A stretch of 64,000 nucleotides of DNA from contig CANMTR010000007.1 of NCBI GenBank assembly GCA_947500825.1, forward strand, positions 1 to 64,000. Direction: 5' to 3'. The position numbers were made by a program, and so were the translations under genes. The notes under the pieces are model-generated. The model saw only the letters and a list, made by a program, of their open reading frames with translations, had not been told where the DNA came from and made no database searches. How positions within the stretch are numbered: the first letter of the stretch is position 1; each line of letters opens with the position of its first letter. The DNA is from an uncultured Paracoccaceae bacterium. Lineage in GTDB: Bacteria; Pseudomonadota; Alphaproteobacteria; Rhodobacterales; Rhodobacteraceae. Below, one piece after another: positions 45,179 through 49,413 of the stretch.

Positions 45179-46830
<1,652 letters not shown>

Positions 46831-46834
<4 letters not shown>

Positions 46835-47061: not shown

Positions 47062-47667
47062 TCAGGCCGTCCGCTTGCGCCGCGCGACCATGCCCGCAAC
47101 GCCGATCCCCACCAGCAGCAGCGGAGCCGTCGCGGGCAGCGGCACGGGTGCCGGGACCACCTCGAACGCCGTCCCGTCGTTCGGGCCGTCGGGTGTATAG
47201 GTCGCCGTCCAGACACCTTCGCTGTCGATGTAGAACTGGCCGGCGTTGATGTCCTCTGTCGCCCCGAACTCGAACAGGTCGAGGATGATGTCGTCGCCTA
47301 GGAAGGACGCGGAGACCGAGACGTCGGTGGCGCTCACGTCGATGTCGTAGCGGCCGATGAAGAAGGTGTTGAAATCCTCCTCCGGCCGCGACAGCAGGGT
47401 GGCCCCTTGAGGGTTCACCGACGGCTCCACAGGAAACTCGAAGTCCTCGCGGTCGAACGATGCCGAATAGATGAAGTCGGGTTCCGTCAGTCCGTCCACG
47501 TCGAACCGGAAGCTTCCCGAATAGGGCCTGGTCTCCGAGAAAACCGGATCGCCGGTCGTCCTGTCCTCGATCGTGGCGGAGGTTCCCGCGAAATCGACCA
47601 CGAGCGTCCCGGCCGTCGCCCCGCCTGCCATGCAGGTGGCAAGCGCCGCTGCGGTGAATACCTTCAT
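47062..47667 (-). CDS. VPLPA-CTERM sorting-domain protein
   Basis: A 201-residue exported protein. The signal peptide ends GGATA-GT. The middle is beta-rich with no recognised domain. The C-terminus has VPLPATAPLLLVGIGVAGMVARRKR: VPLPA motif, hydrophobic helix and basic tail, the sorting signal read by exosortases of Rhodobacterales. The protein is probably cut at the membrane and passed to the exopolysaccharide layer. The exosortase gene is not in this window. Start chosen at MKVFTAAALA; nine extra upstream residues are possible. Confidence 0.85.
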   Translation of the reverse strand: MKVFTAAALATCMAGGATAGTLVVDFAGTSATIEDRTTGDPVFSETRPYSGSFRFDVDGLTEPDFIYSASFDREDFEFPVEPSVNPQGATLLSRPEEDFNTFFIGRYDIDVSATDVSVSASFLGDDIILDLFEFGATEDINAGQFYIDSEGVWTATYTPDGPNDGTAFEVVPAPVPLPATAPLLLVGIGVAGMVARRKRTA

Positions 47668-47831
47668 GGAAAATGACCCTCTTCGCGTTAACACGCCGCT
47701 AACTCGTCAAGGTCTCCGCAAATGTCCAGTATCAAAGGGATTTTTCACCCTAAGCGCGAGCCGGTGCCGACTTATACGCCTGCGTTCGCCCCAATCGGCC
47801 GCCTCATCCGTATGCCGCCCCCCTAAACGCG

Positions 47832-47859
47832 AAAGGGCCGCCTCACTGGGCGGCCCTTG
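47832..47859 (-). terminator. terminator after small basic protein gene
   Basis: A perfect ten-base stem AAGGGCCGCC (47833-47842) with GGCGGCCCTT (47849-47858) is followed by TTTCG on the minus strand, 19 bases past the stop of the small basic protein gene. Confidence 0.7.
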
Positions 47860-47877: not shown

Positions 47878-48057
47878 TCAGAGCTTCTTCTTCGCCACGT
47901 TGGCCGCCTTCTTGGCAAGATCGCCCTTGGGGCTGCCGTGGCTACCACCCGTCTTTCCAAGGCCGGAGGTTCCCTTCGGCCCCGCGGTGGGGCCGCGGGT
48001 CTTGGACTTGTTGCCGAAGGCCGAGGCGGCACGCCGGACTATGCTACCGAGATTCAT
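47878..48057 (-). CDS. small basic Lys/Gly-rich protein
   Basis: A 59-residue protein: MNLGSIVRRAASAFGNKSK, then a Gly/Pro/Thr/Ser stretch with lysines, ending KKAANVAKKKL. The N-terminal LGxIVRRAxxxFG can form an amphipathic helix. AGGGAGA precedes the ATG, and a terminator follows, supporting a real gene. The N-terminus resembles that of the 49-residue protein at 49093. Function unknown; the basic character suggests nucleic-acid or membrane binding. Confidence 0.65.
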   Translation of the reverse strand: MNLGSIVRRAASAFGNKSKTRGPTAGPKGTSGLGKTGGSHGSPKGDLAKKAANVAKKKL

Positions 48058-48199
48058 GGTGCGTCTCCCTGTCTGGGCGGCTCGATTGCCGCACATTCAG
48101 GTATTAACGCCGCGTGTGGCACCCTCGTTCCTGCGATCCGGGCACATGGCATACCGTGCGCCTCCAGGCTTCGAATGCCCCGCCCTCCGTCATCGCGAC

Positions 48200-48224
48200 A
48201 AAAAAAGGGCGCCCGCAGGCGCCC
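48200..48224 (-). terminator. intrinsic terminator after cold-shock gene
   Basis: GGGCGCC (48207-48213) and GGCGCCC (48218-48224) with a CGCA loop are followed on the minus strand by seven T. It lies 33 bases after the cold-shock stop. Confidence 0.88.
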
Positions 48225-48257
48225 TCCCCAAAATCCTGTCCGAAAGCTCGGCGGTCT

Positions 48258-48464
48258 TCAGACCAGCTCGAGGTTCCCGGCGGATTCACGGCCGTCGCGG
48301 CCGGACTGCAGCTCGTACTGGACCTTCTGGTTGTCGGCGAGGCCCGTCAGGCCGGCGCGCTCGACAGCCGAGATGTGGACGAACACGTCCTTGCCGCCCG
48401 AGTCGGGCTGGATGAAGCCGAAGCCTTTGGTGGGGTTGAACCATTTCACGGTGCCGGTGGCCAT
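48258..48464 (-). CDS. cold-shock domain protein (CspA family)
   Basis: A 68-residue single OB-fold RNA chaperone. RNP1 is KGFGFIQ and RNP2 is DVFVHIS, after the canonical start GTVKWFNPTKG. Upstream in-frame ATG codons exist, but the start at MATGTVKWF follows AGGAGATCTCACG and matches the family. The roughly 130-base leader may carry a temperature-sensitive 5' structure as in other csp genes. It has its own terminator and is likely monocistronic. Confidence 0.94.
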   Translation of the reverse strand: MATGTVKWFNPTKGFGFIQPDSGGKDVFVHISAVERAGLTGLADNQKVQYELQSGRDGRESAGNLELV

Positions 48465-48594
48465 CGTGAGATCTCCTGTAGTCATGTCCTGTTCGCGGAA
48501 GTGCAACAGCGTGGCGAAACGTGCCCGGATCGAAAGTGCTGCAGGTCCGAAAGGAAAGTACAGAGTATCGACGGTGTAGCTTGCGAGACTTTAT

Positions 48595-48978
48595 TTACCC
48601 CCATTCACCATCCCTGTCCACCCTCAGCGTTCGGGCCTCCTCGTCCTCCTCGCGCTGCGCGCGTTGCCAGGCGGCGAAATCCCGCTCGAACATGTTGGCC
48701 TTGGCGATCCGCATCTGCGCGTAGGTCGCGAGCACGCGGTTGATCCTCCCCTGGTAGCCCCGGCCCATCGCCCGGTAGAAGGCCGCGACGCTCTCGTCCA
48801 GGCGCAGGGTAATCTGCACCTTGCGTTCCCGTACGTCGACGTCCTCCTCCAGGGTGCGCCAGGCATCCGGGCACAGGTCGCGGATCAGGTCTTCCACCAC
48901 GCTCTCGTCCTCCAGGGCACGGAGGTTGCGCAGCATGCGGTCGCGGGCGATGCGCCCCTTCTGGGTCGGTCTGGTCAT
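48595..48978 (-). CDS. BrnA-like antitoxin family protein, orphan
   Basis: A 127-residue protein. The segment QITLRLDESVAAFYRAMGRGYQGRINRVL (about 56-84, given here only by its limits: starts QITLRLD, ends RINRVL) matches the BrnA antitoxin DNA-binding pattern, a ribbon-helix-helix in which the strand precedes GxGYQxRIN. An N-terminal helical region (1-50) and an acidic C-terminal tail flank it. No BrnT-type toxin is adjacent. It may be an antitoxin that lost its toxin or a stand-alone regulator. Confidence 0.65.
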   Translation of the reverse strand: MTRPTQKGRIARDRMLRNLRALEDESVVEDLIRDLCPDAWRTLEEDVDVRERKVQITLRLDESVAAFYRAMGRGYQGRINRVLATYAQMRIAKANMFERDFAAWQRAQREEDEEARTLRVDRDGEWG

Positions 48979-49092
48979 GCCCGCATCCTGGGGGCGGACA
49001 CGTTAGGGGGGCGCGAACCCTGCGTTCGCACCCCCCCTAGTATCATTTCGTTTCCGCTGCTCCGGAACTCCTGCGGGAGTCCGACGGGACTC

Positions 49093-49242
49093 CTACAGGT
49101 GCTTCCTGGCCGTCCTCGCCACGCCGCGGGCCAGTTGGCTCTCGGCGGAGCCTCCCCTGCGGGTGGTGGGCCTGCGGCTCATCCGGCGGCCCCGCGACCG
49201 GCCGAAAATCCCCATCGCACTGCGGATCAGTCGTCCAAGCAT
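49093..49242 (-). CDS. small Arg-rich protein
   Basis: A 49-residue very basic protein: MLGRLIRSAMGIFGRSRGRR then a Ser/Arg/Thr-rich part ending ARGVARTARKHL. GGAGA lies five bases before the ATG. The N-terminal LGxLIRxAxxxFG mirrors the protein at 47878. A cluster of interleaved inverted repeats at 49063-49095 covers its stop and may end the transcript. Function unknown. It could alternatively be read from 49275, adding 11 residues. Confidence 0.5.
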   Translation of the reverse strand: MLGRLIRSAMGIFGRSRGRRMSRRPTTRRGGSAESQLARGVARTARKHL

Positions 49243-49413
49243 GTCACTCTCCACTGCTACTACCCTCGGGTTCACTCACTCGAACCCGCTGACGGTCCCA
49301 TAACGTGGCCCCTCCCGGCGCGTTCCCGGGCCAGGCGCGATTTCGCAATGTCGCGAACATGCCACTTGGCGAAAAGCACGAATCGTGTCTTGCTCACGTC
49401 GGGAGGCTCCGAA

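Follow-up and report, generated by a model that had tools for sequence, protein, structure and literature searches.

Proteins of the DUF1127 family, found mainly in Alpha- and Gammaproteobacteria, are described as small (often <50 residues; CcaF1 has 71) and arginine-rich, with the arginines predicted to lie in two helices (PMC12501420). The same source reports that CcaF1 of Rhodobacter binds RNA, that YjiS is located at the membrane, and that the small DUF1127 proteins (SDPs) of A. tumefaciens bind PhoR (PMC12501420). Because DUF1127 proteins bind RNA or sit at the membrane, charge alone cannot tell which of the two a protein of this type does. Small proteins are often missed by automated annotation (PMC11796252).

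Here we describe P1 and P2, two small basic proteins encoded in the window (the whole stretch of DNA analyzed, 64,000 nucleotides long), which by profile comparison are almost certainly diverged members of one family without a name. With YjiS, CcaF1, and the A. tumefaciens SDPs they share small size and richness in arginine; unlike DUF1127, they have a variable linker that parts two helices, and the DUF1127 profile was matched neither by P1 and P2 (Pfam, E values up to 10) nor by the 16 members of alignment A4 that were scanned (E values up to 1). DUF1127 may serve as the best functional analogue but not as a relative. A literature search found no paper on this small-protein family.

Methods

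Searches with P1 and P2 counted only open reading frames (ORFs) that were read and bore both motifs; rows outside this count, not all of which were read, reach E values of 0.003 (G017) and 0.0076 (another site in G000), and G010 gave one further weak row, interrupted by two stops, which was not included either. Large searches scored 18 candidates per genome. In an earlier search of 394 genomes, 82 had a row at E values up to 0.05, from which G000, G009, G015, G062, G084, and G107 were accepted, while nine further rows were discarded on reading, and the count rests on the rows read. Scans of family libraries omitted G457, G513, G664, G367, and G651, and G124 was included in the PHROGs scan only. 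Anatomy was described on 22 members, i.e., the 24 gene copies without G007, whose protein is the same as that of G013, and G431, which is a single residue away from G015.

Results and discussion

Both ORFs were found on the minus strand as originally predicted, each with the N-terminal pattern LGx[IL][IV]RxAxxxFG, and the ribosome-binding site claimed for P1 is present (Table 1). The "good terminator" claimed for P1 was borne out only in part: a GC-rich hairpin with a 10-bp stem lies behind the gene (71-base stretch, z of −2.0; 8 of 200 shuffles fold as well), but its T tract is interrupted, and the hairpin is absent from the output of a rule-based terminator scan.

Table 1. Features at the P1/P2 locus (positions in the window; ORFs of P1 and P2 include the stop codon)
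Feature	Position	Strand	Basis or remark
ettA, convergent neighbor	45179..46834	+	NCBIfam TIGR03719, E 6.4e-274
VPLPA-CTERM sorting-domain protein, between P1 and ettA	47062..47694	−	NCBIfam TIGR03370, 29.6 bits (cutoff 25.35)
GC-rich hairpin 3' of P1, terminator-like, interrupted T tract	47833..47858	−	
P1, 59-residue family member	47878..48057	−	Ortholog in G005
P1 C-terminal helix, residues 43-58	47884..47931	−	AlphaFold2, block pLDDT 75 then 82; conserved motif
P1 N-terminal helix, residues 3-15	48013..48051	−	AlphaFold2, block pLDDT 76 then 61; conserved hydrophobic spine
P1 ribosome-binding site GGGAG	48065..48069	−	Sequence
Cold-shock gene between P1 and P2, not a family member	48258..48464	−	Pfam CSD, E 7.4e-23
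BrnA-like antitoxin gene between P2 and the cold-shock gene	48595..48978	−	Pfam PF14384, E 2.6e-17
P2, 49-residue family member	49093..49242	−	Homologues in G002, G008, G009, and further genomes
P2 C-terminal helix, residues 33-48	49099..49146	−	AlphaFold2, block pLDDT 74 then 80
P2 N-terminal helix, residues 2-15	49198..49239	−	AlphaFold2, block pLDDT 74 then 57
P2 ribosome-binding site GGAGAG	49247..49252	−	Sequence

In the six-frame translation of the window (127,996 codons), the pattern LG.[IL][IV]R.A...FG has exactly two matches, P1 and P2, a count that alone is no proof of kinship, since the pattern was derived from these two proteins. Direct BLASTP of P1 against P2 gave no alignment, so the question of homology was decided via intermediates. 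P1 has an ortholog in G005, a genome of the same genus (E 5.6e-13, 73% identity), and P2 as query matches G002, G009, and G008; the G009 protein as query led to further members in the genus. Scored against a profile of 11 P2-type sequences (P2 included, P1-type sequences excluded), P1 reached 22.5 bits, the best of 2,000 composition-preserving shuffles reaching 11.6; P2 reached 33.9 bits against a profile of four P1-type sequences (P1, G005, G015, and G062), with 12.5 for the best of 2,000 shuffles. In all 12 such cross-profile tests the real score was unreached by any of 2,000 shuffles, although search and tests overlap to some degree, since some of the training sequences had themselves come from profile hits. 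By these scores P1 and P2 are homologues, not look-alikes.

The contrary reading, that both are spurious basic ORFs in GC-rich DNA and alike by composition, draws on the low-complexity Arg/Lys/Gly/Ser linkers, on the missing BLASTP alignment, and on the many chance matches to basic stretches (E values from 0.003 to 1). It is hardly credible against the shuffles, and the coding evidence speaks in the same direction. All 24 copies have GGAG before the ATG, and differences between close pairs accumulate mainly at third codon positions (positions 1/2/3: G013 versus G007, 0/0/4; G015 versus G431, 1/0/6; P1 versus G005, 9/11/21; L104 versus G002, 9/5/26; G006 versus G011, 12/6/25), with a dN of 0.21 and a dS of 0.64 for P1 versus G005. 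Distant pairs have no clear third-position excess (P2 versus L104, 16/15/18; P2 versus G009, 12/9/14; P1 versus P2, 25/19/25, with dN and dS both 0.74), so the case for selection on P2 itself is less direct than that for its relatives. Furthermore, the single ORF to exceed 9.0 bits among the 5,391 of 60 ettA flanks was the family member of G124, itself a training sequence; the profile thus does not collect basic ORFs at large. The cross-profile tests and the codon-position differences together rule out chance resemblance, and the ribosome-binding sites and the pattern of substitution in close pairs indicate that the copies are genes.

The profile search proposed with the original prediction recovered homologues with both motifs. 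We read 24 gene copies in eight genera (if Palleronia sediminis belongs to the window's genus): 12 copies in 11 of the 14 genomes of the window's genus, 1 in P. sediminis, and 11 in seven other genera (G015, G062, G084, G107, G124, G431, G457, G513, G664, G367, and G651). Profile A2, which contains the genus members found earlier and whose search therefore confirms and counts without discovering, placed the family in 11/14 genus genomes, with two copies in the window's genome only; it found none in G001, G003, and G004, so the gene is not needed everywhere. A scan of named genomes (19 candidate stretches) gave two relatives, in P. sediminis SS33 (L104) and Palleronia abyssalis CECT 8504 (L105), the latter with the same protein as G002, and the window's genus is apparently that of P. 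abyssalis. At E values up to 0.001, profile A4 matched 7 of 394 genomes of the taxonomic family, and profile A5 matched 13 of 390 genomes of the order, 9 of them judged true and 4 not (G409, G459, G505, and G546, whose rows were read but not counted as members). Both genomes of the genus of G015 have the family, as does one of the two in the genus of G107. The 394-genome search missed the true member in G367, giving another site of that genome, and A5 found it later; since searches miss true members, absence from a single genome is weak evidence.

Neither P1 nor P2 had a match in Pfam, NCBIfam, or PHROGs at E values up to 10. Scans of 16 members at E values up to 1 gave two unrelated Pfam families, with one member each (best E 0.038), and one isolated weak NCBIfam match (E 0.11); in PHROGs, 2 of 18 members matched PHROG 7192, of unknown function, weakly and at chance level (best E 0.043). 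No relative of P2 was found in the PDB, where the best match of profile A5 (E 0.47) was judged to be chance. The family thus falls outside the family libraries searched, which upholds the suggestion that it is unnamed; judged by its sequences, it is real and of modest interest. Two sources of the genes were considered and rejected: phage (P2 was unmatched in phage records, and profile A3, of five sequences, had no confirmed relative in viral contigs) and plasmid (the G009 protein was unmatched in plasmids).

Members are 39 to 63 residues long and very basic (net charge, +9 to +18). An N-terminal spine, L/I-x-x-[hydrophobic]-[hydrophobic]-x-x-[hydrophobic], is present in all 22 members, P1 and P2 included (alanine counted as hydrophobic), and a basic C-terminal helix capped by S/N/D-[PASV]-[EKQ] is present in alignments A4 and A5. 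The C-terminal motif reads roughly S-[PA]-[EK]-x-Q-[LIV]-A-x4-R-x-[AV]-[KR]-[KR]-x-L, from which P1 deviates at two positions; because members were found through profile searches, conserved positions are favored. The linker between is variable, basic, and acid-free (8 to 31 residues in the 22 members), and no member has D or E before the C-terminal helix. In 17 sequences, mean pairwise identity was 0.49 over the 17 C-terminal residues versus 0.38 over 12 N-terminal residues, both segments having been picked by the analyst. AlphaFold2 modeled two helices and a low-confidence linker in each of P1 and P2 (mean pLDDT, 63.7 and 66.3, respectively; pTM, about 0.3 for each), i.e., with moderate confidence.

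In 8 of 16 members, including P2 (P = 0.007), the helical moment over residues 1 to 13 was significant against the member's own shuffles (P < 0.05); for P1, 12% of shuffles reach its value (P = 0.12). Over the last 17 residues it was significant in 6 of 16. The amphipathic N-terminal helix of the original prediction is therefore supported by the spine and by half of the moments, more weakly for P1 itself. The disordered basic tail fared less evenly: the variable basic linker agrees with it, but the protein ends in a conserved second helix, which is the better conserved half. What is predicted is a pair of helices joined by a basic linker that varies and lacks acidic residues, rather than an anchor with a disordered tail. 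This two-part signature of an amphipathic N-terminal helix and a capped C-terminal helix persists while the linker varies freely, and provides a usable profile for further members as well as a clear design by which the parts played by the two helices could be told apart.

A membrane-active cationic peptide, either leaderless bacteriocin-like or curvature-binding, would act through such an N-terminal helix. Leaderless bacteriocins and cationic antimicrobial peptides are short, cationic, and helical, and the conserved spine and high moments (0.84 in L104, 0.78 in G002) fit that reading, which we nevertheless consider distinctly unlikely: residues 1 to 13 have a mean hydrophobicity of only −0.18 to 0.30, the 22 members lack tryptophan and cysteine, no exporter or immunity gene was recognized among the annotated neighbors, and the neighborhood is unchanged over several genera. 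Unlike leaderless bacteriocins, moreover, the family has a helix-linker-helix form.

In the window, the interval from the cold-shock gene (csp) to ettA contains P1, and that from parA to csp contains P2. Context A, with ettA and/or a cold-shock gene nearby, accounts for 20 of the 24 copies. In every copy whose stretch includes ettA (17/17: 10 genus copies, G084, G107, G457, G513, G664, G367, and G124), that gene lies on the 3' side and on the opposite strand; the stretches of G002, G009, and L104 do not include it. Of the 13 Palleronia copies, 12 have parA on the 5' side in the same orientation (for L104 it was not found). All 13, L104 included, have a cold-shock gene no more than 1 kb away, on either side and either strand. 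G084, G124, G457, and G513 also have one within that distance; the stretches of G107, G664, and G367 yielded none. The remaining four copies (context B: G015, G431, G062, and G651, in three genera; loci L132, L133, L136, and L198) follow a 4HBT thioesterase gene (9880-10548 in L133) in the same orientation at a distance of 88 to 142 bases, and an enoyl-CoA hydratase gene lies farther on, on the opposite strand; speE faces the small gene in G062 and G651 and was not found for G015 and G431. With two different neighborhoods, the neighbors point to no clear function.

One reading of context A is that the proteins are nucleic-acid- or ribosome-associated, with a role connected to translation and cold shock, and that the ettA/csp neighborhood is functional; the N-terminal helix would pack against a partner that is ribosomal or bound to RNA, while RNA would be bound by the basic linker and C-terminal helix. 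The constant convergence with ettA and the recurrent nearby csp argue for it. We find it doubtful: convergent genes need not share function, csp varies in strand and side and was not found in three of the stretches, and the four copies of context B sit behind the thioesterase gene instead. The ettA-csp linkage is also wider than the small gene. Among 139 genomes, ettA was found in 132, and of the 60 whose 3' flank was taken (two flanks being only 928 and 544 bases), 31 have csp within about 4.5 kb of ettA, but only one (G124) has the family, which weakens a functional reading of the neighborhood.

The BrnA-like gene beside P2 raises the question of whether P2 is the toxin partner of that antitoxin. 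A BrnA gene likewise adjoins the family gene in G009, but BrnA is in the stretch of only 2 of the 11 genus carriers (G000 and G009), and in G004 it occurs without a family gene. In contrast to BrnT/BrnA pairs, which P2 resembles in its neighbor, P2 has no BrnT match (Pfam and NCBIfam, E values up to 10). A BrnT gene was not noticed next to the BrnA-like gene of the window. The pairing is extremely improbable and largely refuted by distribution.

The genus genomes in which the family was not found bear on the locus itself: in G003 and G004 other genes lie between csp and ettA (BrnA occupying the slot in G004), and in G001 both csp and parA are missing among the matches listed for a 9.5-kb stretch, so the slot may not be intact there.

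As a mechanism, we propose that the protein remains in the cell, where its amphipathic cationic N-terminal helix would dock either to one face of a membrane or into a partner's hydrophobic groove, while the acid-free basic linker and capped C-terminal helix would bind a polyanion (RNA, the ribosome, or an acidic stretch of some protein). Such a protein would serve as a small adaptor or regulator through electrostatic binding, as reported for the unrelated arginine-rich DUF1127 proteins. The membrane or nucleic-acid binding put forward in the original prediction is plausible for the family; the polyanion- or membrane-binding adaptor as a whole we place a little short of an even chance. A more specific version, in which a lineage-specific, fast-evolving family combines a helix for docking on a membrane or partner with RNA or ribosome binding, would tune translation with EttA and the cold-shock protein, and in a few genera moved beside the thioesterase gene with its function kept, seems improbable.

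The two copies of the window are best compared with those of its congeners. G005 carries the P1 type only, and its ettA has the highest identity to that of the window (92.7%) among the genus genomes measured (G002 was not measured). Each of the other nine genus carriers has a single copy, located in one slot or the other; that of G008 is intermediate in type, and the rest are P2-like. We infer that the two copies stem from an old duplication with loss, or from two arrivals at one locus, followed by divergence.

In the ettA-parA interval (L106 to L115), the strand of csp and its order with respect to the small basic gene both vary, and parA and ettA, wherever they occur, have a constant orientation relative to the small gene; within the genus, this interval is locally rearranging. 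Near the P1 ortholog, G005 has a counterpart of the VPLPA-CTERM protein (35% identical). The Rfam model of the cspA thermoregulator RNA matches weakly over the cold-shock gene (48199-48631, minus strand; 28.9 bits versus a gathering threshold of 78; E 1.4e-4), and the csp leader looks alike by eye in several relatives.
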